A stretch of 29,074 nucleotides of DNA from positions 1 through 29,074 of the IMG/VR virus record IMGVR_UViG_3300023443_000483. One strand, 5' to 3'. The DNA comes from a virus. Shown here in pieces: positions 1 through 24,670 of the stretch (position 1 is its first letter; every line of letters starts with the position of its first letter). A program made the translations under genes and the position numbers. The notes below the pieces were generated by a model that was given only the letters and a program-made list of their open reading frames with translations, did no database searches and was not told where the DNA came from.

Positions 1-144
1 CTTTCAGCTCTGCAAGCTGGGTATAAATAATGCTCTTTTAAAATTCCCCCAGCGCCTACAGAAGTATAATCATCAGCCCTGACTTTATGCTCTAAATATA
101 TGTAATCCCTAAAAGTATTAACGGCTAAAGTAACACTACATTCA
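1..144. repeat. Inverted repeat, left arm (partner 388-531)
   Basis: Positions 1-144 are the exact reverse complement of 388-531, which lies inside the small terminase gene. Base i pairs with base 532-i, and the match stops at 145/387. The arms are 243 bp apart. The copied segment carries part of a conserved coding gene in reverse and reads as no gene of its own. A fold-back chimera at a contig end (amplification or assembly) is the simplest explanation. A real hairpin end or inverted duplication is possible but less likely. Confidence 0.95.
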
Positions 145-228
145 GCTTTAAGCTGGATAGAAGAACATAAACCACACCAAGTTGTCGCTATGAAATGCGG
201 TGTGCCAGCCAGACATTTTAATGTCTGA
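145..228 (+). CDS. C-terminal fragment of the gene before the small terminase
   Basis: From the end of the inverted repeat a frame stays open for 27 codons and stops at TGA 226-228. The encoded tail contains WIEEHKPHQVV and ends VPARHFNV. Its stop overlaps the small terminase start in an ATGTCTGA arrangement (8 nt), the same kind of junction as the one at 27120-27127, which supports a real upstream gene. The 5' part is missing because the sequence switches to the inverted repeat at 144. Function is not recognisable. An HNH endonuclease is common at this place in HK97-like phages, but no HNH motif is visible here. Confidence 0.4.
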   Translation, partial: ALSWIEEHKPHQVVAMKCGVPARHFNV

Positions 229-3614: not shown

Positions 3615-3659
3615 AAATTTTCAATATCAATTGAAAATAGTGAATTATGCATCTATAAT
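3615..3659 (+). promoter_or_regulatory. Late promoter with dyad, copy 1 (before portal)
   Basis: TTGAAA (3631-3636) and a perfect TATAAT (3654-3659) are spaced 17 bp and would start transcription about 20 nt before the portal ATG. The -35 box lies in an inverted repeat, ATTTTCAAT / ATTGAAAAT with a 4-bp centre, followed by ATAGTGAA. The same 24-bp dyad and ATAGTGAA tail recur before the capsid gene (11223) and before 21057. Presumably a site where a phage or host regulator contacts a late promoter. Confidence 0.75.
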
Positions 3660-3686: not shown

Positions 3687-5492
3687 ATGAGTTTCTTGAA
3701 TGGGTTTTTTAATTTTTTTGGAGGTGGTGGAACTTCACAAGCCACTAGTAACTCAAGTTCAGCTATTCCCAGTATAACCCGGTTCTTTACTTCTTTTTTC
3801 AATCCTACAAATTCCGGTATCAAAATTGAGCCTGAAGATTCTTTACAATTATCGCCGGTCTGGTTGGCAGTCAGGGCAATTTCTGAAGACATAGCCAAGT
3901 TACCCATTAAAATTGTTATCAAAGAAGATAATGAAGTTTCCGAGATTAAAGATAATCCGTTAGGTGAGATCTTAACAAAGGGGTTTAACCCAAACGTTGA
4001 TTCCATGACCGGTATTGAAACCCTTGTAAGATGGCTTTTAATGTATGGCAATGCTTATTGTGAAATTGTTACTAGTACCACGGGGAAAATGCAATGGGAG
4101 CTAATACACCCAACAAGGGTTGACCCTATACGACAAGAAGACGGTTCTTTTAAATATAGAGTCATCATTGTTAAGAACACATCTCAGACAATAACAAGAA
4201 TCTTTACAGCGGCACAAATGTTGCATTTAAAAGGGCCGGGCGATGGTCATCTTGGTTTTGTTCTAGGTAACATATCAGCTGAATCTATGGGTATAGGGAT
4301 TGCGGCGCAAAATTTCACCGGTTCATTTTTTGGAAACAACCTTTCAATTGGTGCGGCGCTAGAAACTGATAAATCTCTAGATGCGGAAACAAAAGCAGCT
4401 GTTAGAAAAGAATGGAAAGAAAAATTTGGCGGTTCAAATAAAGCTTATGAAATGGCTATACTTGACAGGGGTTTCAAGTTCAACAGATTGCAAATGAACT
4501 CAACTGATGCCGAATTATTAGCAACAAGAAAATTTCAAGTTGAAGAAGTATCCCGCTGGTTCAGAATTCCTTTGCACAAATTAATGGATATGAGCAAGAG
4601 CACATTTAACAATGTTGAGCAGTCAGATATTAATTATGCAACTGATACCATTGCACCATGGTTAGCACGTTTAGAGAAACAGTTGACTTTCAGGTTTTTA
4701 AGCGGCAATAAATTAGTTGATATAGATGAAAAATTCTTAAGTCGGGGTGATACGAAAGCAAGGGTACTGCTTTACAAAGAACTGTTTGCCATGGGTGTTA
4801 TTGATGCAAACCAAATTGCTTTTCTTGAAGGGTTTCCGGTATTTGAAGGCGGCGATAAAAAATACATTCCTTTAAACTTAGCGCCTCAAGATTTGTCAGT
4901 CGAAAGCTTAGAATTGGATATTGAAATCAAAAGAAAGCAGCTAGAAGAGCCTGAAAATGAACCAGAAACAACAGAAACTGAGACTGAAGAGACAGAGGAT
5001 GAATCAGAGACAGAAGAAACTGAGACGGAAGAGGAACAGCCACAAGAAAACAATTCTGAAAATATAAGTCAGGATGGGGCAATTTCAGCTTTTATTCCGG
5101 TGATGCGGGAAAGGTTAGAGGTACTTGTCAAGAAAGAAAAGTATTCCCTTGAAGCGGCAAATAAAAAAAATACTCAGACTGAAAAGGATGAACATAAGCA
5201 GAGATTTTATATACGTTTTGAAACTGAATTACAAGAATTTTTAATTGTTCAATTTAGTTACCTATGTAAAGTCGCTGACAAACGTTCACAGACAAAAGCG
5301 GAATGTTTAAAATTGGCGCAAGAGATATGCGGTAATAAGACTGAAAAAAACCGCGCTGATATGATACTTAAAAAGATTCTAAATAAAGTCACGTTATCTG
5401 AAACTGCACCAAAAATTGGCGATATACAAAAGTGTGAAGATGGCAAGTATTACAAATGGACTCTTAATGGTTGGAGGCCGATCAATGAATAA
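3687..5492 (+). CDS. HK97-type portal protein with acidic C-terminal extension
   Basis: Encodes 601 aa. Portals form the dodecameric ring at the head vertex through which DNA passes. Residues about 45-410 match the HK97 portal core: SPVWLAVRAISEDIAKLPIK (56-75), the GNAYCEI and LIHPTRVDP region (121-147), MLHLKG (178-183), and STFNNVEQ (305-312) before the clip/stem region. Typical HK97-family portals are about 400-450 aa. Here residues 420-455 are a Glu/Thr low-complexity linker and 465-601 form an extra charged helical domain ending YKWTLNGWRP. ATG follows AGGA at five bases. It is the first gene behind the copy 1 dyad promoter, and its stop overlaps the next ATG by 8 nt. Confidence 0.92.
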   Translation: MSFLNGFFNFFGGGGTSQATSNSSSAIPSITRFFTSFFNPTNSGIKIEPEDSLQLSPVWLAVRAISEDIAKLPIKIVIKEDNEVSEIKDNPLGEILTKGFNPNVDSMTGIETLVRWLLMYGNAYCEIVTSTTGKMQWELIHPTRVDPIRQEDGSFKYRVIIVKNTSQTITRIFTAAQMLHLKGPGDGHLGFVLGNISAESMGIGIAAQNFTGSFFGNNLSIGAALETDKSLDAETKAAVRKEWKEKFGGSNKAYEMAILDRGFKFNRLQMNSTDAELLATRKFQVEEVSRWFRIPLHKLMDMSKSTFNNVEQSDINYATDTIAPWLARLEKQLTFRFLSGNKLVDIDEKFLSRGDTKARVLLYKELFAMGVIDANQIAFLEGFPVFEGGDKKYIPLNLAPQDLSVESLELDIEIKRKQLEEPENEPETTETETEETEDESETEETETEEEQPQENNSENISQDGAISAFIPVMRERLEVLVKKEKYSLEAANKKNTQTEKDEHKQRFYIRFETELQEFLIVQFSYLCKVADKRSQTKAECLKLAQEICGNKTEKNRADMILKKILNKVTLSETAPKIGDIQKCEDGKYYKWTLNGWRPINE

Positions 5493-6033
5493 TTTATTAA
5501 GCATTGATCAAGTTGAATCTGATGTAGGTGAAACAGGCCAAACAGGCTCACGCGGCGCGCAAGGGAAACAGGGTCTTAAAGGTGATCAGGGTGTTAAGGG
5601 TGAACGCGGGCAGCGTGGCGAAACTGGTTTAACTGGCTCAACGGGTAAGATTGGCCCGCAAGGAAAGTCAGGCGTTAAGGGTAACACCGGTTTAATAGGT
5701 ACACCGGGTAACGATGGCGGTACTGGAGTTAGTATTGATACAATGGAAATTCAAGGGCTTAATCTCGTTGCCTTCTTCACAGACGGAACAATGCAAGTTG
5801 TCGGGCGCGTTGTTGGTGAAACTGGTGAACAAGGTGAAAGAGGTATACAGGGAAGAGCTGGTTCAGGGTTTAGAATTGGTGGAGGTAGTTTAAGGGAAAA
5901 TAGCGGTTTACCATTCTTTTTTATCCGTAAAAATAAAACAGTCACTATACCGGAAAACAGACAGTCTTTAATATCTGGTGAAAGAATAGTTGAAGGTGAT
6001 TTAATTGTCTTAGGTGAAGCGGTGGAAATATGA
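5485..6033 (+). CDS. Collagen-like virion protein
   Basis: Encodes 182 aa from ATG 5485, chosen because GGAGG lies eight bases upstream and the ATG overlaps the portal stop; a longer frame back to 5416 runs through portal code. Residues 15-80 are 22 uninterrupted Gly-X-Y triplets (for example GDQGVKGERGQRGETG), and a second run GETGEQGERGIQG begins at 111. Between and after them are beta-rich segments such as GLNLVAFFTDGTMQVVG. Gly-X-Y runs in phage proteins form stiff trimeric stalks in fibres. Being placed straight after the portal, it may be a head or neck fibre rather than a tail fibre; this is inference. The stop overlaps the next ATG. Confidence 0.8.
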   Translation: MNNLLSIDQVESDVGETGQTGSRGAQGKQGLKGDQGVKGERGQRGETGLTGSTGKIGPQGKSGVKGNTGLIGTPGNDGGTGVSIDTMEIQGLNLVAFFTDGTMQVVGRVVGETGEQGERGIQGRAGSGFRIGGGSLRENSGLPFFFIRKNKTVTIPENRQSLISGERIVEGDLIVLGEAVEI

Positions 6034-6467
6034 GTACTAGAAACGGAACAATTCAGTTATTGGATAATCAAGACCCCTCTAATGCAGATCAGCAAAAAGG
6101 GCGCTTATATTGGAATGATACAACTAAGACATTTTTCCAAATTGATGATCAAGGTGTAAAGACTGAACTGATACAGGTCGGCGCATTGCAGACAAATGCA
6201 ACCACACAGTCAACAGATACAAGTTACACTATAACAACTGAGACGAGTATCTTTGCGAATACTATTGATAATGGTCAAGTAATCAATCTTCCGGCAGCTT
6301 CATCTATCAGAACACATAATATAAAAAAGATTGCACAGGCTAATAAAATGTCAATAACCCCTGCTGGCTCGGATAAAATAGACGGCTCAAGTGTCCTTGA
6401 AGTATTTGATAAAAATGAAAGTATAACAGTCCAGAGTGATGGCGTAACAAATTGGTATATAATATGA
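6030..6467 (+). CDS. Putative beta-rich virion protein
   Basis: Encodes 145 aa. The N-terminus carries GRLYWNDTTKTFFQIDD, a pattern seen in phage fibre and head-decoration proteins that display a repeated beta module. The rest is alternating polar/hydrophobic strand-like sequence, such as QVINLPAASSIRTHNIKK and KMSITPAGSDKIDGSS. No cysteine, membrane segment or signal. ATG overlaps the collagen-like gene by 4 nt (ATGA) and its end overlaps the next gene by 4 nt. A structural role is inferred from context and composition; no specific family is claimed. Confidence 0.6.
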   Translation: MSTRNGTIQLLDNQDPSNADQQKGRLYWNDTTKTFFQIDDQGVKTELIQVGALQTNATTQSTDTSYTITTETSIFANTIDNGQVINLPAASSIRTHNIKKIAQANKMSITPAGSDKIDGSSVLEVFDKNESITVQSDGVTNWYII

Positions 6468-8450: not shown

Positions 8451-9311
8451 ATGTTTAACTACGAATACTTACAAATTTGTGAAATGAGCCTTTCAAGGAT
8501 ATTGCAACGTTTTGAATGCATTCACCATATTGAGTTTAACGGTGAGTCTATACAAGCCATACAAGCCAATGGTGATGCGTTTACAGCGGCTTCAAGACCG
8601 GTTTTAACTAAGGATGGGAAAAGGGCATTGATCAATGTAGATGGGCCTATGTCGGCAAATCCTTCATTTTTTGAAAAGGTGTTCTTTGGTGCTGTTGATA
8701 CTATGGAAGTTTTAGAGGCTATTAAGGATGTTAGAAAAGATGACAATATAAAGTCAACTGCTTTGGCTTTTAACTCTCCCGGTGGAAGTGCTGAAAAAAT
8801 ACACATAGTTGCAAATGAACTTTTTCAACTGAGTCAGGAAAAGCCAACAGCTTCTTTGAATGTTGGTAATATGTCAAGTGCTGCTTTCTTTGTCGGTTCT
8901 CAGGCTCGTAAAATATTTGTTGATGATGAAATGAATATGACCGGGTCAATTGGAACGCGTGTTATGGTCAAAGACACCAGCGAAGCTTTTAAAAAGGCTG
9001 GAGTAAAAGTTATACCAATTGTGACCGGGCCATTAAAAGCAATGGGTGTGCTCGGTACTGAGGTTACACCAGAGATGGTTGATTTTATAAAGAAGCAAGT
9101 TGATAGATTGCAGGAAAACTTTAACAATGCTGTAGAACGTACCCGGAAAGACTCTGATATGTCTGACGGCTCAGAAGCCCGAAGCGGTGCAAGTTTCTTT
9201 TTTAAGGATGCTAAACGTTTAGGACTTGTAGACGGTGTGAAAAATTTGAAGCAGGTTTTTAGAATGCTGGATAATATGACTCTGGAAAATGAGCTTAGAC
9301 AAAGTATATAA
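8451..9311 (+). CDS. S49-family (SppA-like) head maturation protease
   Basis: Encodes 286 aa. Such proteases cleave scaffold and the capsid N-terminal segment during HK97-type head maturation. Visible motifs are FNSPGGSA (107-114, oxyanion loop), NMSSAAFF (140-147, nucleophile likely S143), TGSIGT (164-169), and GPLKAMG (193-199) with K197 in the place of the general-base lysine of short SppA proteins. The capsid gene normally follows directly, but here a 1.8-kb reverse-strand cassette lies between. The start has GAGGG before it. It is the last gene of the portal-protease transcript. Confidence 0.88.
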   Translation: MFNYEYLQICEMSLSRILQRFECIHHIEFNGESIQAIQANGDAFTAASRPVLTKDGKRALINVDGPMSANPSFFEKVFFGAVDTMEVLEAIKDVRKDDNIKSTALAFNSPGGSAEKIHIVANELFQLSQEKPTASLNVGNMSSAAFFVGSQARKIFVDDEMNMTGSIGTRVMVKDTSEAFKKAGVKVIPIVTGPLKAMGVLGTEVTPEMVDFIKKQVDRLQENFNNAVERTRKDSDMSDGSEARSGASFFFKDAKRLGLVDGVKNLKQVFRMLDNMTLENELRQSI

Positions 9312-9338
9312 AAAAGGCACCATTAAACGGGTGCCTTA
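9308..9338 (-). terminator. Intrinsic terminator of reverse cassette 2
   Basis: Reading the reverse strand, AAGGCACC (9337-9330) pairs with GGTGCCTT (9321-9314), an 8-bp stem with an 8-nt loop, followed by TTTTTT. On the forward strand the stem is followed by ATAAG, so it acts mainly against reverse transcription. The TAA of the 59-aa gene lies in the loop, so the stem encodes its last residues. Confidence 0.8.
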
Positions 9339-9502
9339 TAAGTCTGTAAAATGAGTTTATTATCCCCGCGAACCCATATTCTTTTTAGCCTGTATTCCAA
9401 GCCATTGACTGAAACCAGAATTTCTTGAGGTTCAAGAGTTCCGGCTTCGGTTTCAATGTCTGGACTTTCAGCAATCCAAATTATAAATTCACGGGTATTC
9501 AC
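9323..9502 (-). CDS. 59-aa unknown protein, end of reverse cassette 2
   Basis: A short gene of 59 codons starting at GTG 9502, three bases after the stop of the ParB-domain gene. The product starts MNTREFIIWIAESPDIETEA and continues with a beta-like stretch (EILVSVNGLEYRLKRIW), which looks like a small folded protein, not random translation. Function unknown. The stop lies in the loop of the cassette's terminator, and the upstream gene directly abuts it, both supporting it as the last gene of the transcript. The GTG start and weak ribosome site (GAAG) reduce certainty. Confidence 0.6.
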   Translation of the reverse strand: MNTREFIIWIAESPDIETEAGTLEPQEILVSVNGLEYRLKRIWVRGDNKLILQTYKAPV

Positions 9503-9505
9503 ATT

Positions 9506-10315
9506 TTATTTTCTTCGTTTCATTTTGGAAAATGGCTGATAAATTTGGAGACCATGATTATAAAGTTCTTCCATTATACGACGCACTTTCACAGAGTCAG
9601 AAGGCATCCCCCTTATGACGTGATGGTTTTTAATACATCGTTGTTTAAGTCTTTCCCACATAATATCTATATCGTTATTATACATATAATTAACAAATCT
9701 TAAAAAGTGCGTTTTCGTTATTAAGCATTCGTCAATTTCTTTAAAGTCTTGAACAATGTCATTTATAAAAGTCGCTCTCTCTCTGTCATTTTCAGAAATT
9801 TCAAAACCGCCGTGTTTAAAGTCATCCGATCTACCACCACCAGTAAACATTCCTATAGCTGTTGACGTGCTGTAATGTCCTCCGCTATCGGCCATATATT
9901 TTTTTAATTCTATATAGTGTTTATTTCCTAGTTCTACATAAGAATTCATGAAATCCTTAAGACTCCAGTTTATACCAACTACATTAATATGTTTTGTTGT
10001 CTCAAGATCAGCTTCTTTAATTATCATGTAATAAATTGTCAACTTCAATATTTTGGCAACTTTGAGACGGTGTTGCCCGTCAATTACTTCAAGTTTTTCA
10101 TTAACAAGAATTGGGTGATATTGTAAAAGGTCTATTTCTTCAATCTTTCTTTGAAGGGTCTTTAAGTCCTTATTTAAAACAGGTCTGTTACCCTTTTGAT
10201 TTTTAAAGATTTTGTGGTTGGCCGATTTATAAATGACCATATCAGACTTATTATGTCTTACCCTTTTGGGTTTGGTCTTGTCTTTTTTTGCTACTTTTGT
10301 TTTAACAGCAGTCAT
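9506..10315 (-). CDS. ParB/sulfiredoxin-fold domain protein
   Basis: Encodes 269 aa. ATG 10315 is used since GGAG sits five bases upstream; a GTG six bases earlier would overlap that site. A Lys/Arg-rich N-terminus (1-25) precedes a ParB-type nuclease/CTPase domain at about 45-100, with LQYHPILVNEKLEVIDGQHR (residues 64-83), the GQHR corresponding to the G-x-H-R box of ParB N-terminal domains. The C-terminal 170 residues are helical with a Gly-rich GMFTGGGRSDDF segment and no clear family. Phage ParB-domain proteins may be nucleases, segregation factors or regulators; no partitioning ATPase (ParA) is next to it, so segregation is unlikely. It lies behind a structured, terminator-like leader. 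Confidence 0.7.
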   Translation of the reverse strand: MTAVKTKVAKKDKTKPKRVRHNKSDMVIYKSANHKIFKNQKGNRPVLNKDLKTLQRKIEEIDLLQYHPILVNEKLEVIDGQHRLKVAKILKLTIYYMIIKEADLETTKHINVVGINWSLKDFMNSYVELGNKHYIELKKYMADSGGHYSTSTAIGMFTGGGRSDDFKHGGFEISENDRERATFINDIVQDFKEIDECLITKTHFLRFVNYMYNNDIDIMWERLKQRCIKNHHVIRGMPSDSVKVRRIMEELYNHGLQIYQPFSKMKRRK

Positions 10316-10326
10316 ATTCACTCCAA

Positions 10327-10386
10327 TAAAAAAACCGCCTTTTTAGGTCGAACATGCCCGATACAAGGCATCCTAAAAGAGACGGT
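10327..10386 (-). terminator. Long hairpin with U-run directly before the ParB-domain gene
   Basis: On the reverse strand an outer stem pairs ACCGTCTCTTTTAGG (10386-10372) with CCTAAAAAGGCGGT (10347-10334). An inner stem pairs ATGCC with GGCAT. Seven T residues follow at once (10334-10328), giving the shape of an intrinsic terminator. The ribosome site of the ParB-domain gene begins only 4 nt later. It may end transcripts of the three upstream small genes, or act as an attenuator controlling the ParB gene. A second small hairpin (ACGG/CCGT) lies at 10411-10426. Confidence 0.65.
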
Positions 10387-10476
10387 AAAATATTGTCTAT
10401 TATTTTAATGACGGTTCGAGCGCCGTAATAATTTTAACCCAGTTTTAACCCTTTACAAATGACAACTATATATAAA

Positions 10477-10677
10477 TCAAAAATATGGTTTTATTTCGTC
10501 TAGTCGTTTAAGATGATTAATAAACAAATCGTCGGTCACTTCAAGGTTAAACAGTTGACACTCTATTCTGAAATGTTCCAAAGCCAATCTGATGACCTTT
10601 GATTGGTCACCAGTAAGTTTTGAGCCGTTGATAAATATTTCGGCTTCTTTTGTTTCGGTGTATAAATAACTTCCCAT
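10477..10677 (-). CDS. Unknown 66-aa protein
   Basis: Encodes 66 aa with the sequence MGSYLYTETKEAEIFINGSK at its start, then a helical half (QSKVIRLALEHFRIE). The first half looks like a short beta-hairpin. No family recognised. GAGGG precedes the ATG by four bases, and the gene follows 9 nt after its upstream neighbour. It is the last of three small genes before the hairpin at 10327-10386, and roughly 90 bases of hairpin-rich non-coding DNA follow it. Confidence 0.6.
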   Translation of the reverse strand: MGSYLYTETKEAEIFINGSKLTGDQSKVIRLALEHFRIECQLFNLEVTDDLFINHLKRLDEIKPYF

Positions 10678-10686
10678 ATTGCCCTC

Positions 10687-10875
10687 TTATTTATTTATTT
10701 CCTTATTGAATTTATTTGCCGCTTTTGTGAGTTCATAAACAGTATGTCCTACGGCAACAGGCTTTCCATTTTTTAGCAACTCATAATCAAAAAGTATATT
10801 GATACTTGGCTGTATAGTATAAACTCTGTCTAGTGAGTGGTATTTTTCAGTTTCGTCGTTTAGGTGAAAGTGCAT
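10687..10875 (-). CDS. Unknown 62-aa protein
   Basis: Encodes 62 aa, beginning MHFHLNDETEKYHSLDRVYT and ending in a lysine-rich helix (ELTKAANKFNKEINK). Centre contains INILFDYELLKNGKPVAVGH, typical of a small beta-hairpin protein. A strong ribosome site (AAGGAG, eight bases before ATG) supports translation. Just upstream, a perfect GCCC-TTCG-GGGC stem-loop lies in the 33-nt gap to the previous gene and may affect mRNA stability. No function can be assigned. Confidence 0.65.
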   Translation of the reverse strand: MHFHLNDETEKYHSLDRVYTIQPSINILFDYELLKNGKPVAVGHTVYELTKAANKFNKEINK

Positions 10876-10908
10876 CTTAATATCTCCTTTAAGCCCCGAA
10901 GGGCAGGT

Positions 10909-11127
10909 TTATTTTAATAACCATTGGCCGTATGCAATTTGTCTAGTTTCAGCGGCTTTTTTTGAAGCTCTATTCTTGCGAATAGTTGCGGCATCTTTCC
11001 GGCGCATATCAAGAATTCTGATTGCTGAGTCAACTGTCTTGAAGCCTTCCCGTTTCAAAGTCTTTTTGATTTGAGCTTTTGAATACTGGTCTAAATTTTG
11101 AGATTTTCTGATTTCTTGTTTAGTCAT
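10909..11127 (-). CDS. Small very basic protein, first gene of reverse cassette 2
   Basis: Encodes 72 aa, rich in Lys and Arg (for example KAQIKKTLKREGF and MRRKDAATIRKNRASKKAAE), mostly helical, without membrane segments. Charge and size suggest a nucleic-acid-binding protein; this is inference. AAGGA is eight bases upstream of the ATG. It is directly downstream of a near-consensus promoter with a palindromic operator (11153-11197) shared with the regulator gene at 23868, so it may be expressed under the same control. Confidence 0.65.
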   Translation of the reverse strand: MTKQEIRKSQNLDQYSKAQIKKTLKREGFKTVDSAIRILDMRRKDAATIRKNRASKKAAETRQIAYGQWLLK

Positions 11128-11152
11128 TTTGTTTTCCTTTTGTCTTTAATAT

Positions 11153-11197
11153 AATATACACCCATGTATTACAAAAGTCAAGCTTTCTGTAATACAT
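11153..11197 (-). promoter_or_regulatory. Promoter and palindromic operator A (reverse cassette 2)
   Basis: On the reverse strand TTGACT (11181-11176) and TATATT (11158-11153) are spaced by exactly 17 bp, a near-consensus sigma70 promoter pointing at the cassette start. It is bracketed by a perfect 10-bp inverted repeat, ATGTATTACA (11164-11173) and TGTAATACAT (11188-11197), enclosing the -35 box. Over 33 bp (11165-11197) it matches 26 positions of 23924-23956, the promoter of the helix-turn-helix regulator gene. Expected to be a repressor-binding site. Confidence 0.8.
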
Positions 11198-11216
11198 AAA
11201 TAAAGAAGGCATTAAC

Positions 11217-11266
11217 GTTTTTTATTTTCAGAATATATTGAAAATAGTGAAAATGACATTTATACT
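11217..11266 (+). promoter_or_regulatory. Late promoter with dyad, copy 2 (before capsid)
   Basis: An 8-bp inverted repeat TATTTTCA (11223-11230) / TGAAAATA (11239-11246) overlaps TTGAAA (11238-11243); TATACT (11261-11266) follows after a 17-bp spacer. Transcription would start near 11273. The 37 bp from 11217 to 11253 are identical to 20972-21008, and the core resembles 3615-3644. It lies divergently from the cassette 2 promoter. Confidence 0.75.
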
Positions 11267-11272
11267 TTGGTT

Positions 11273-11366
11273 ATAGCTGTTGTCGTCACTCCCGTGTGCG
11301 AGCAATGGCAACTAAGCAAATACTCAAAGTTGAGGCAACACCCTTTTAAGGGTTGTTGCCTTTTTT
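11273..11366 (+). terminator. Structured leader with intrinsic terminator before capsid
   Basis: A strong terminator is formed by GGCAACaCCC and GGGTTGTTGCC (11334-11360, one bulge) followed by T6 (11361-11366). The capsid ribosome site GGAG begins at 11370. Upstream segments GTTGTC (11279-11284) and GGCAAC (11307-11312) can pair with each other, or GTTGTC can pair with the identical GGCAAC of the terminator's own 5' arm (11334-11339). These are alternative structures as in attenuators. A small hairpin TCGTCAC/GTGTGCGA (11283-11302) lies between. Either an attenuated leader or a short stable RNA with the promoter at 11238-11266. Confidence 0.7.
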
Positions 11367-11382
11367 ATTGGAGAAATGAGAC

Positions 11383-12675
11383 ATGAATTTAGAACAGAAA
11401 CAAGACGCTCTTAAAGCATTAATGACTGAAATAGAATCACTTGGTGCTGATTCAGAGCAGTACGGTGTAAAGCTCACTGAGGCTAAAGAACTCAAAGAAG
11501 AAATTGAAACTATGCAAGCAAATCTAATTTCTTTTAATGAGTTGAAAGAACAAGCTGATGCAATGCCGTTGGCACAATCTATTCAAGCTGGAAAGACTCA
11601 ACAGATTACAGTTGGAAAGCCGGGATTTACGCAAGATCCCAAAAAGGGTTTTCAGAATGTTGGTGAAATGCTTTCTGTTATTGCGAGCAATACTCAAGGG
11701 AAATCACTTAATCTTTTAGGTGATGTAAGACTTGAACACCTTGCTGATATTCAAATGACAAGCGGTCAAAGTAACACTACTTCTGACGGCCTCATGATTC
11801 CCGCTGAACTATTGCCGGAGATCAACACACTTGGTAAAGACGCTAGCGATAATTGGCTCTCTCGCTTTACCATTAACAGAACAAACAGAAATGCGGTTGA
11901 AATTCGCAGAGACGCGGCAACAACTCGCGGTGGTTCTGTTGGTCTTGTTGTTGGACGTGCAAACGAACTTCAACAACTGACAAGCACTAGACAAGTGTTT
12001 GAAAAGACTACTGTAAAAGTTGACAAGATTTTTGTCTATACTGAAGTTTCTGAAGAAGATTTGAGCGACTTTGCTTTGCTTCAATCTAATATCATGCAAA
12101 CGGCGCCGGAACTTCTCGACATCAAAAAAGGTGAGGAAGTTCTTTTTGGTACTGGAGCGGGTGAAGCACTTGGATTTAAAAACGGCGGTGACACTGCAAC
12201 TGTTACAAGAAATACAGCCGGAAAAGTTAAGGCTGAAGATGTAGTTAATATGCGGGCTCGCTTTTTGAGAACTCGCGGAACTGCTGGTGCTTTCTGGCTT
12301 GTTAATCAGGCGGTATGGTCGCAACTACCTTTGATGACTATTGGTGACCAACCAGTATTTGTAAATGACCTCAACGGCTCTTCTGATGGTTTCCTTTTGG
12401 GAATGCCTGTTTTCACTACTGAAGACTGTGAAGCTCTTGGCTCAGTTGGTGACGTTTATCTTGTAAATCCAGATGCTTATTTTGCTTTGGAAAAAGAAGG
12501 CGGTGATCGTTTCGCAACTTCAATGCACGTCAAATTTGATTTTGATCTAATGGCGTTCCGTTGGACTTCTCGATTTGGCGGCGCTCCAAAATTCAACAGC
12601 CCATATATTCCACGCGACAAAAACAGCACTACAAAAGCTACTTTGTCCAATTTTGTCATCTTAGGCTCAGCATAA
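11383..12675 (+). CDS. HK97-type major capsid protein
   Basis: Encodes 430 aa, the usual size. Residues 1-60 are a helical, Glu/Lys-rich delta domain (KALMTEIESLGADSEQ, LKEEIETMQANLISFNEL) that acts as internal scaffold, likely removed by the S49 protease. The rest has the HK97 fold signature pattern: DGLMIPAELLPEI, the RTNRNAVEIRRDAATT region, FVYTEVSEEDLSD (about residues 220-232), GEEVLFGTGAGEALG and FWLVNQAVWSQLP with GMPVFTTEDC near the end. SD GGAG is nine bases upstream. It is separated from its protease by a reverse-strand cassette and lies behind its own promoter and terminator-like leader. Confidence 0.92.
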   Translation: MNLEQKQDALKALMTEIESLGADSEQYGVKLTEAKELKEEIETMQANLISFNELKEQADAMPLAQSIQAGKTQQITVGKPGFTQDPKKGFQNVGEMLSVIASNTQGKSLNLLGDVRLEHLADIQMTSGQSNTTSDGLMIPAELLPEINTLGKDASDNWLSRFTINRTNRNAVEIRRDAATTRGGSVGLVVGRANELQQLTSTRQVFEKTTVKVDKIFVYTEVSEEDLSDFALLQSNIMQTAPELLDIKKGEEVLFGTGAGEALGFKNGGDTATVTRNTAGKVKAEDVVNMRARFLRTRGTAGAFWLVNQAVWSQLPLMTIGDQPVFVNDLNGSSDGFLLGMPVFTTEDCEALGSVGDVYLVNPDAYFALEKEGGDRFATSMHVKFDFDLMAFRWTSRFGGAPKFNSPYIPRDKNSTTKATLSNFVILGSA

Positions 12676-12689
12676 AAGGAGATTGAAAA

Positions 12690-13124
12690 ATGTCTACATA
12701 CGTAAAACAAGAAGCATCAGAAAAAGTATCGTTTCAAGATGACATCCCACCATTAGTCGGAGCGGGTACACCGTCAACGGCTTGGATCGACATTAAAACG
12801 GCTTGCAACTGGCTTGGTATTGCTCAAGCTGGAGCGGTGGTTACTACTTCCATAGATGGCAAATTTGAACAGGCTACAGATGGTTCAGGAACTGGCGCTA
12901 AAGACGTGACCGGTAAGGCTATCACTCAGTTGACGGCAGGGCCAGCAGTGGCGCTAGTAAACTTGAATGCCGGTGATTTGGATTTGGCTAATGGATTTCA
13001 GTTTATTCGCTGGTCAATGGTTTCAGTTGGTGCATCCACAGAATTTGCCGGCCTTCTAACAGCTCAAGATCCACGTTATGAGCCACTTGCACAAGGTGCG
13101 ATTGTTGTTGAAGTAATCGCCTAA
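12690..13124 (+). CDS. Unknown virion protein next to capsid
   Basis: Encodes 144 aa, beta-rich (TAWIDIKTACNWLGIAQAGA, then strand-turn repeats and AIVVEVIA at the end). Placed between capsid and connector genes, where decoration or head-stabilising proteins are often found; a decoration role is inference, as I do not recognise a family. Strong ribosome site AAGGAG eight bases before ATG, and 14 nt after the capsid stop, so the same transcript as the capsid. Confidence 0.55.
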   Translation: MSTYVKQEASEKVSFQDDIPPLVGAGTPSTAWIDIKTACNWLGIAQAGAVVTTSIDGKFEQATDGSGTGAKDVTGKAITQLTAGPAVALVNLNAGDLDLANGFQFIRWSMVSVGASTEFAGLLTAQDPRYEPLAQGAIVVEVIA

Positions 13125-13139
13125 TAAGGACTTGTTTAG

Positions 13140-13703
13140 ATGGGGTTGAAAGTAATAGCAGTGACTGGAGCTGAACCTGTTTCTTTATCTGATGTTACAA
13201 ATTGGATACGGTACACAGGAACTTTGCAAAATTCTGTTATTACTTCCCTCATCACAGCAGCCATTGCAGAGGTTGAAAACTGGACAAATAAGACGGTAGT
13301 CGAAAAAGATTACCAACTTACTCAGCAGCAATTTACCTCTATTATAAATTTCCCCGTGTCAACAGTTCAGTCAATAACAAGCATTCAATATTTGGATAGT
13401 GCAGATAATTTACAGACCGTTGCAAGTACGATTTATGGTCTTGATAATATTAGCGAAATTAATCAGGTATTTCAAAAGAATACTGGTACTGGTTTTCCGT
13501 TTTCGAACGGTGAGCCAAACTCGGTACAAATTAATTTTACTTCATCCTTTAATGGTGATGTAGTCCCGGAAGATACAAAGACAGCGATCAAAATAATAGT
13601 TGCACATATGTATGAAGAAAGGGAAGCATACAGCACTGAAGCAATGCGGGTTAATCCAGCAATAGAAAATCTGCTCAATATTCAAGCAGTTTACAGGTTT
13701 TGA
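13140..13703 (+). CDS. Head-tail connector, gp6-like
   Basis: Encodes 187 aa. The gp6-like family forms a ring on the portal that joins head and tail. Typical signs are an N-terminal VTGAEPVSLSDVTNWIRYTG, the helix SVITSLITAAIAEVENWTNK (33-52), and the C-terminal helix IKIIVAHMYEEREAYS with VNPAIENLLNIQAVYRF at the very end. AAGGA precedes the ATG by nine bases. Its stop overlaps no ATG but the next start is within 3 bases, consistent with continuous late translation. Confidence 0.85.
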   Translation: MGLKVIAVTGAEPVSLSDVTNWIRYTGTLQNSVITSLITAAIAEVENWTNKTVVEKDYQLTQQQFTSIINFPVSTVQSITSIQYLDSADNLQTVASTIYGLDNISEINQVFQKNTGTGFPFSNGEPNSVQINFTSSFNGDVVPEDTKTAIKIIVAHMYEEREAYSTEAMRVNPAIENLLNIQAVYRF

Positions 13704-13705
13704 TC

Positions 13706-14062
13706 ATGGGTGTTAAAGCAGGGAAACTATGGCAGGAAATTACGATTCAACAAAGGGATGAAACCATAAATGACTTTGGTGAATCAGAGCCTGTTTATGT
13801 GACTTTTAAAGCTATGTATGCGAAGCAATTAAATACCACAGGTAATGAGGTAATTCAGGGTGATCAGGTTGAAGCTATTTTCGATACTGTGTTTGAAATA
13901 AGAGCAGAGGAAACAAACGGCATTCGTGCAAATATGCGCGTTAAAAGTGACATGACAGGTGCCAGTAGGTTTTACAATATTGTTCATGATGTTGACCCGG
14001 ATCAAAGAGGCATAAAGCAGAAATTATTTTGTAAGCGGTTGGAGAATATAACAAATGGCTAA
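13706..14062 (+). CDS. Head-closure (head-tail adaptor) protein
   Basis: Encodes 118 aa from ATG 13706; an in-frame TTG two codons upstream has no support. The pattern is that of SPP1 gp16/HK97 closure proteins: GKLWQEITIQQRDETINDFG near the N-terminus, then a small beta-barrel with VYVTFKAMYAKQLNTTG and a strand FEIRAEETNGIRANMRV, ending SRFYNIVHDVDPDQRGIKQK. These proteins seal the filled head and dock the tail. Order (connector, closure, gp10-like, tail completion) is the standard HK97-like one. Confidence 0.8.
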   Translation: MGVKAGKLWQEITIQQRDETINDFGESEPVYVTFKAMYAKQLNTTGNEVIQGDQVEAIFDTVFEIRAEETNGIRANMRVKSDMTGASRFYNIVHDVDPDQRGIKQKLFCKRLENITNG

Positions 14063-20971: not shown

Positions 20972-21008
20972 GTTTTTTATTTTCAGAATATATTGAAAAT
21001 AGTGAAAA
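20972..21008 (+). promoter_or_regulatory. Dyad element, copy 3 (before 21057)
   Basis: Identical over 37 bp to 11217-11253, including the TATTTTCA/TGAAAATA dyad and ATAGTGAA tail. Unlike copies 1 and 2, no -10 box sits 17 bp after TTGAAA: the shared ATACTTTGG follows 5 bp closer than in copy 2, leaving a 12-bp spacer to AATACT. The site may still bind the regulator, but promoter activity is doubtful without help. Confidence 0.75.
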
Positions 21009-21018
21009 GAAATACTTT

Positions 21019-21050
21019 GGAGTTTGACGGCTCCTCATATAAAACAGGAG
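21019..21050 (+). promoter_or_regulatory. Possible ribosome-site hairpin before 21057
   Basis: CTCCT (21031-21035) can pair with the ribosome site AGGAG (21046-21050) of the gene at 21057, or CTCC with GGAG at 21019-21022. The two pairings exclude each other, so the leader could switch access to the site. The stems are short (4-5 bp), so this may be chance. Confidence 0.35.
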
Positions 21051-23496: not shown

Positions 23497-23530
23497 GTTG
23501 CGGGGGTTGTAGCCCCTGCAACATTATTTT
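23497..23530 (+). terminator. Terminator of the late (+) transcript
   Basis: GTTGCGGGGG (23497-23506) pairs with CCCCTGCAAC (23513-23522), a 10-bp stem (one G-U pair) with a 6-nt loop; ATTATTTTTT follows on the forward strand. It lies about 360 bp past the last late gene, within the antisense regulator region, so it would stop late transcripts before they run into the HTH gene. The reverse-strand side lacks a U-run. Confidence 0.7.
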
Positions 23531-23868
23531 TTATATTCATTAAAAGCTTTCAAGAAATTACTGAAGAGTTTTATATCTTCGTTGCTAAAGTCTTTAAGCA
23601 TATCAAAGATTTGAAATAGCTGTTCATTCTTTTCTATCGTTCTAGAAACAATGCTTATACTATTTGCAGTGTTTGGTTTTACATATTTTTTTATGTAAGG
23701 ATCAAACTTCTCTCTTATTCTTTCCGGGGAAGCTCCACCACCGTTAAGTATTCTTTTTAGTGATGACTTGTCAGAATATCCAAGCAGCTTAGCGGCTTGT
23801 TCCAAAGTATATTTTTCTGTGACAATCCAAAGTTTGATAGCGTCCCTGTATTCTTTTGTTATATTCAT
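23524..23868 (-). CDS. Helix-turn-helix regulator
   Basis: Encodes 114 aa. ATG 23868 (GGAG six bases upstream) is chosen over a TTG at 23880 that coincides with this ribosome site. Residues 20-43 have the helix-turn-helix pattern TLEQAAKLLGYSDKSSLKRI, and a helical domain follows (GGGASPERIREKFDPYI). The C-terminal 50 residues are helical and could dimerise. Its promoter carries a palindromic operator (23912-23956) that is repeated at reverse cassette 2, so the protein may bind both sites and repress itself; that is inference. A late terminator overlaps its 3' end. Confidence 0.7.
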   Translation of the reverse strand: MNITKEYRDAIKLWIVTEKYTLEQAAKLLGYSDKSSLKRILNGGGASPERIREKFDPYIKKYVKPNTANSISIVSRTIEKNEQLFQIFDMLKDFSNEDIKLFSNFLKAFNEYKK

Positions 23869-23911
23869 TTTATACTCCAATTGTTTTTAATAGCGTTGTA
23901 GCGCTATAAAT

Positions 23912-23956
23912 ACATTAATGCGGTGTATTACTTTAGTCAAGCTTCTTGTAGTACAA
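23912..23956 (-). promoter_or_regulatory. Promoter and operator B of the HTH regulator
   Basis: On the reverse strand TTGACT (23940-23935) is followed after 17 bp by TAATGT (23917-23912). The -35 box lies between TGTATTAC (23924-23931) and TGTAGTACA (23947-23955), an imperfect inverted repeat. It matches operator A at 26 of 33 positions (11165-11197 vs 23924-23956). Further down, TAGCG/CGCTA (23891-23906) forms another small palindrome near the expected transcript start. Confidence 0.7.
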
Positions 23957-23966
23957 ATATGATTTG

Positions 23967-24245: not shown

Positions 24246-24670
24246 CTGAAAAGAAATATACTACAAAGCCTTTTGAATCTATTGTTGAAATGATGATTTC
24301 TCACAAGAAAAAAGAGAATGTTATTTTTACTTATAAAAAACAAAAGTCAAAAAATGATAAACCTAAAATAATGAACGGGAAAAACGAAATGAAACTTATG
24401 ATTGATAATACTTTTAAAGAAGCTCTAAAGCTTTGGTTTTATAATGGAATTTATCCGGGCAGTTGGACAATAGCTTTAATTATAAAGGATTATGAAACTT
24501 GCATTTTTAATGCACATCCTTTAATATTACCTCATTTAAAAGATCATTTAATATATGTTGATGAGTATTTACCTATAGAAGCAAAAGATATACAAAAATG
24601 GGAAGGCTTCAACAGACTATCAGAAGATGAAAAAATTAAAATTAAAAAACCAAATCCGGCTTTGTGTTAA
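24242..24670 (+). CDS. Unknown 142-aa protein
   Basis: Encodes 142 aa, Lys-rich in the first half (KKKENVIFTYKKQKSKNDKP) and ending with a domain containing FKEALKLWFYNGIYPGSWTI and AHPLILPHLKDHLIYVDEYL. No family recognised; the pattern of a C-terminal small alpha/beta domain after a basic arm suggests nucleic-acid or protein binding, but this is inference. It follows a membrane gene by ATGA overlap and is followed by an intrinsic terminator. Confidence 0.6.
   Translation: MTEKKYTTKPFESIVEMMISHKKKENVIFTYKKQKSKNDKPKIMNGKNEMKLMIDNTFKEALKLWFYNGIYPGSWTIALIIKDYETCIFNAHPLILPHLKDHLIYVDEYLPIEAKDIQKWEGFNRLSEDEKIKIKKPNPALC

Follow-up and report, generated by a model that had tools for sequence, protein, structure and literature searches.

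A promoter, short leader and predicted terminator directly before the capsid gene of a few related uncultured phages

The major capsid protein (MCP) gene of a 29-kb phage contig is preceded by its own promoter, a short structured leader and a predicted intrinsic terminator, which ends 16 nt before the start codon. We refer to the whole stretch of DNA analysed, 29,074 nt, as the window. Two diverged relatives have the same plan, and the logic of the sequence thus gives good support to the proposal of a first-pass annotation that the MCP gene needs read-through or antitermination. No late product is needed more than the capsid protein, yet the sole transcription route to it in this group crosses a terminator. 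We give an even chance to the capsid unit being an autonomous and regulated one, with a terminator gate of the lambda pR'-tR' type and a putative antitermination factor.

The capsid gene and its promoter

The gene order in the window is terminase, portal, protease, MCP and tail. The features of the capsid unit and its surroundings are as follows (window coordinates).

3618 to 3644: further copy of the 27-bp block, at the portal promoter
9506 to 11127, minus strand: cassette between the protease gene and the MCP promoter, with a ParB-like protein (9506-10321) and small ORFs
11225 to 11251, plus strand: 27-bp block TTTTCA-N7-TTGAAAATAGTGAA, a putative regulator site, in three copies in the window
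11238 to 11266, plus strand: pMCP, sigma-70-like promoter (TTGAAA at 11238-11243, 17-bp spacer, TATACT at 11261-11266)
11273 to 11366, plus strand: predicted leader or terminated RNA, about 94 nt, its start placed from the -10 element
11276 to 11309, plus strand: 5' hairpin HP1, about -15 kcal/mol by RNA folding
11332 to 11366, plus strand: predicted intrinsic terminator, stem GAGGCAACACCC-TTTT-AAGGGTTGTTGCC and T6 tract
11370 to 11373, plus strand: ribosome-binding site (Shine-Dalgarno) GGAG, a few nt past the U-tract
11383 to 12675, plus strand: MCP gene, HK97-type, PHROG 10 (E = 3.3e-18)
20980 to 21006: further copy of the 27-bp block, before a gene farther downstream

The opposite-strand cassette, about 2 kb long, splits transcription of the protease and upstream late genes from pMCP, so the MCP gene of the window needs its own promoter. 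The promoter that the first-pass annotation placed at 11238-11266 is indeed found there, TTGAAA-17-TATACT matching the consensus at 10/12 bases and ranking among the three best promoters in 9000-14000. Transcription is predicted to start near 11273, from the position of the -10 element.

The 27-bp block is present at 3618, 11225 and 20980 in the window, three copies compared with 0.01 expected by chance. It contains the palindrome TTTTCA-N8-TGAAAA, which overlaps the -35 of pMCP; this position fits the site of a dimeric regulator and the palindrome is operator-like, a putative operator. The portal and MCP copies are followed by a good -10 at 17 bp and the 20980 copy is not. At that copy (window 20980-21024) the distance to the -10 departs from the usual one, being about 5 bp shorter than at the MCP copy, and a small GGAG...CTCC hairpin lies 3' of it, before the next gene. 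An energy-based terminator search of the window found no terminator 3' of the portal and 20980 copies.

A second operator-like repeat, of the type TGTATTAC...GTAATACA, is present at window 11165-11201 and 23924-23960, the two copies being 78% alike. The former sits at the minus-strand promoter of a small gene (10909-11127), the latter precedes a likely HTH gene (23524-23880), and the repeat is probably the target of another regulator. Elsewhere in the window, the ORF at 5416-6033, 3' of the portal gene, has Gly-x-y-like (collagen-like) repeats, judged from DNA repeats only. At the contig start, window 1-147 and 385-531 form a 147-nt inverted repeat with 99% complementarity. This may be an artefact of amplification or assembly, and the first 0.5 kb of the window may thus be unreliable.

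The leader and the predicted terminator

The leader of about 94 nt and the strong terminator 16 nt 5' of the capsid ATG, both proposed in the first-pass annotation, are confirmed at the level of sequence. The terminator consists of a hairpin (11332-11362) and a T-tract (11361-11366), the end of which is 16 nt 5' of the ATG at 11383. At -18.6 kcal/mol it is the best of 28 plus-strand candidates in the energy-based search, which covered both strands of the whole window. It has the sequence characters of an intrinsic terminator: the hairpin is G+C-rich, the U-tract follows directly and it is unidirectional. The 110-nt window leader folds at z = -3.8, and no shuffled sequence folds as well. The U-tract and the ATG are only 16 nt apart, so no promoter fits 3' of the terminator, and every MCP mRNA must therefore read through it. 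A terminator serving the opposite-strand genes was considered and rejected; the U-tract is on the plus strand, and the relatives keep the terminator without those genes.

It had also been suggested that the leader adopts mutually exclusive folds, in which GTTGTC (11279-11284) pairs with GGCAAC at either 11307-11312 or 11334-11339. The motifs are at these positions, but the exclusive folds are not borne out. In the fold of 11273-11366, HP1 is the first to form and the terminator forms alongside it, while the pairing of GTTGTC with 11334 reaches -17.0 kcal/mol compared with a minimum free energy of -34.0 kcal/mol for the terminated RNA, about 17 kcal/mol worse. The probability of the 11334 pairing is about 0.0016 even before the 3' arm of the terminator is made. 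In the relatives the six-pair alternative is reduced, by eye, to about five AU-rich pairs in one and three in the other. The energy difference and the lack of conservation thus lead us to reject a two-state GTTGTC/GGCAAC switch or riboswitch.

Close relatives share the plan

Relatives were sought in IMG/VR with the terminase, portal and MCP, and genome contigs were also scanned. Two close relatives were found in these scans of viral and genome contigs:

G001, IMGVR_UViG_3300010392_000035: terminase 61% and MCP 53% identical to the window
G008, IMGVR_UViG_3300009136_000025: MCP 53% identical to the window and 87% to G001

Both relatives lack the opposite-strand cassette (9506-11127) of the window. 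The protease and MCP genes are 178-192 nt apart in them, and this stretch follows the same plan of promoter, hairpin, linker and terminator. Their pMCP reads TTGCAA or TTGCAT, 17 bp, TATACT, with the -10 and the spacing identical to those of the window. The 5' hairpin is in the same place as HP1, has a conserved loop and is built on a conserved stretch, CTGTTAAATTGCGG. The predicted terminators (-20.2 and -15.9 kcal/mol) are followed by T7 and GGAG, the U-tract and then GGAG being common to all three phages, and the distance from the end of the U-tract to the MCP start is 13-16 nt across the three. The leaders of the two relatives fold at z = -4.6 and -3.3. Among terminators on the late strand, the one before MCP ranks top in the window and in a 20-kb piece of G001, and third in G008. 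The energy-based search saw no terminator after other operator-bearing promoters; as predicted from sequence, the terminator is confined to MCP among them.

In both relatives a palindrome, CTGAACTARTTCAG, lies directly next to the -35 of pMCP and recurs in the early control region beside a CI-like HTH gene, in G008 also before the terminase gene. The operator GAACTARTTC of the relatives lies likewise at the early promoter beside the CI-like repressor gene, at pMCP and, in G008, upstream of terminase. In G008 the CI-type operator occurs at 864-901, 6345-6360 and 24310-24345, upstream of terminase, at pMCP and in two copies at the early promoter. The product of the CI-like gene (L030:8603-9022 in G008) is 139-140 aa long, is 73% identical between G001 and G008 and has weak repressor-type matches in Pfam and PHROG. 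The palindrome at the window pMCP differs from that of the relatives and occupies the same place. With the CI-type operator common to the early region and the late promoters, one would naturally infer that the late promoters are repressed directly in the lysogen; this coupling suggests that the lysogenic repressor may act on the late genes directly.

Conservation of the leader

Between G001 and G008, 93/166 four-fold sites (56%) are identical. Identity is 84% in the operator and promoter, 88% in HP1, 79% in the linker and 69% in the terminator stem, and the 3' part of the linker, TTACATATCACTTAAAAATTT running into AAGGCTATT, has zero changes. The first-pass annotation had proposed to look for compensatory changes in the leaders of related phages, and the terminator stem keeps nearly all of its pairs between the two, with one C-G to U-A double change. 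As read by hand from the folds, nearly all stem changes are in loops, are G-U/A-U exchanges or belong to the double change. The leader structure is thus kept by selection and not merely inherited.

The window leader has TTTATACT, AGCTGTT and GCCTTTTTT..TGGAG in common with the relatives and little more, so over the longer distance the plan is what is conserved; likeness in the sequence of HP1 and the linker is seen between G001 and G008 only. Judged from these comparisons, the promoter-leader-terminator plan is under purifying selection in the three phages, two of which are close and which are not three independent observations.

Distribution of the arrangement

The comparison set comprised 11 diverse phages taken from terminase matches with the MCP in range. 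The protease-MCP spacing is at most 28 nt in nine of them and 103 nt in one, and in one the protease is unannotated. None of the 11 sampled phages has a comparable terminator before MCP, which rules out the arrangement as a general phage property. In more distant relatives with about 25-30% MCP identity (phages of Bradyrhizobium, Caulobacter, Tritonibacter and Paraburkholderia, and contig G007), the gap is 86-128 nt long. These five have no U-tract terminator before MCP, so the terminator is not a property of the whole MCP family either. A significant hairpin before MCP (z = -2.8) is seen in just one of them, the Bradyrhizobium phage; it has no U-tract and is 26 nt from the MCP start.

On this sampling the predicted terminator before MCP is a feature of the clade of the window, G001 and G008. 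Its placement directly before the capsid gene is unusual, and no description of a terminator-gated capsid leader in phages was found in the open-access literature.

A gate and its alternatives

In a gated unit, the repressor would shut pMCP in the lysogen and the terminator would stop leaky transcription. During lytic growth, RNA polymerase starting from pMCP or passing from upstream would be made resistant to termination by a putative factor acting on the leader RNA or the promoter DNA, probably at HP1, the linker or the promoter spacer. This would be a late gate like lambda pR'-tR', but located at the capsid gene and not where the late operon begins.

The gate has to be weighed against a terminator that is always partly efficient, an attenuator or insulator which would keep the capsid gene off in the lysogen and scale MCP output with no antitermination factor. 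Constitutive partial read-through would give the same sequence picture as a gate, and a repressor-type operator combined with a terminator would give a tight off state. The leader has no RNA switch, and no antiterminator gene was recognised: no N- or Q-like family matched any of the 20 relative and about 20 window proteins scanned, many of which have no family at all. Permanent throttling of the most needed virion protein seems wasteful, however, and the conservation of HP1 and the linker, well above that of neutral sites, is left unexplained. It exceeds what a plain attenuator needs, and we therefore prefer the gate and consider constitutive attenuation rather unlikely. Attenuation by ribosomes translating a leader peptide is highly improbable. 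The window does contain an ORF (MATKQILKVEATPF, 11305-11349) that stops in the loop region of the terminator; its ribosome-binding site is weak, and linker indels of 1 nt and 4 nt break the frame in the relatives, which have no reading frame in common and of which G001 has a frame that stops at once. The leader peptide is accordingly rejected.

The hairpin could instead be a 5'-UTR element that protects or positions the capsid mRNA, with an incidental U-tract. In all three phages 18-20 nt separate its end from the MCP start, the linker can touch the Shine-Dalgarno region in folds, and the Bradyrhizobium phage has its hairpin before MCP without a U-tract. A stabiliser needs no U-tract, though, and T6-T7 directly follows the stem in all three phages and in none of the distant relatives, so we regard such a role as quite improbable. 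The stable short RNA raised by the first-pass annotation is possible. At 94-113 nt, with a hairpin, a single-stranded linker and a terminator ending in a U-tail, the terminated leader has an sRNA-like layout. The 3' part of its linker is identical between G001 and G008, and the leader could be a StxS-like regulatory sRNA of which MCP is the read-through product. Among ORF starts, its best pairing partner is the same small membrane-protein gene in G001 and G008, across the Shine-Dalgarno. This gene lies in the late tail/lysis region (G008 18683, L030:3683-3988; G001 29373, reverse-complement coordinates), and its Shine-Dalgarno (TATGTAAGGGGGAA) forms 14 contiguous pairs with the G008 linker. 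The pairing is not significant against shuffles, shuffled linkers pairing equally well in 25/200 trials for G008 and 124/200 for G001. The window linker is not conserved and has no good target, and an Rfam search of the leader gave sub-threshold matches only, with no family above the gathering score. A regulatory sRNA is thus an unlikely account of the leader.

Together, the 5' hairpin, conserved linker and terminator at the capsid gene might be a phage regulatory RNA of a new kind. Such an element could recruit an antitermination factor, so far undescribed, to release capsid synthesis late in infection, or it could be a dual RNA, the terminated form acting in trans on, for instance, a lysis gene and the read-through form serving as capsid mRNA. 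We offer this broader proposal tentatively and with considerable doubt. In phages that have no recognisable Q or N protein, the conserved leader would offer a way to find a new antitermination factor.

Comparison with known systems

Amino-acid operon attenuators of the trp type have a leader with a terminator before the first gene. The capsid leader resembles them in having a terminator 5' of the gene, and differs in that it contains neither a conserved leader peptide nor an antiterminator fold. By eye, a stretch of the G008 linker, CCTCTTTACA, could be taken as boxA/nut-like; G001 has a base inserted in its core and the window has nothing alike.

StxS is a phage sRNA, named in reviews, that ends at the early terminator of a late transcript (PMC7873438, PMC12197685). 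The predicted capsid leader RNA is likewise short and stops at a terminator early in a late phage transcript; the genes and phages differ, and the leader gave no significant antisense target. The HK022 put RNA, about 70 nt with two stem-loops, mediates antitermination over kilobases (PMC9378689). The capsid leader also has a hairpin at the transcript start, upstream of the terminator, but this is one stable hairpin in all three leaders and not two adjacent ones.

In the lambdoid pR'-tR' system with Q antitermination, a late promoter and short leader are followed by an early intrinsic terminator that gates the downstream late mRNA (PMC6606751). By eye, neither a direct-repeat QBE nor a clear -10-like pause element was identified in the capsid promoters and leaders; the promoter spacer of G001 and G008 is conserved (AAAAAGGGCG.T) and without direct repeats. 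Unlike the lambdoid system, the capsid promoter carries a palindromic operator, and no Q gene was recognised among the scanned proteins. As in pR'-tR', the capsid unit has a promoter, a short leader and a predicted intrinsic terminator gating a late mRNA, but it serves MCP inside the late operon and is not at the operon head. Were it gated, the late operon would contain a second checkpoint, specific to the capsid and separate from the control of the packaging genes.
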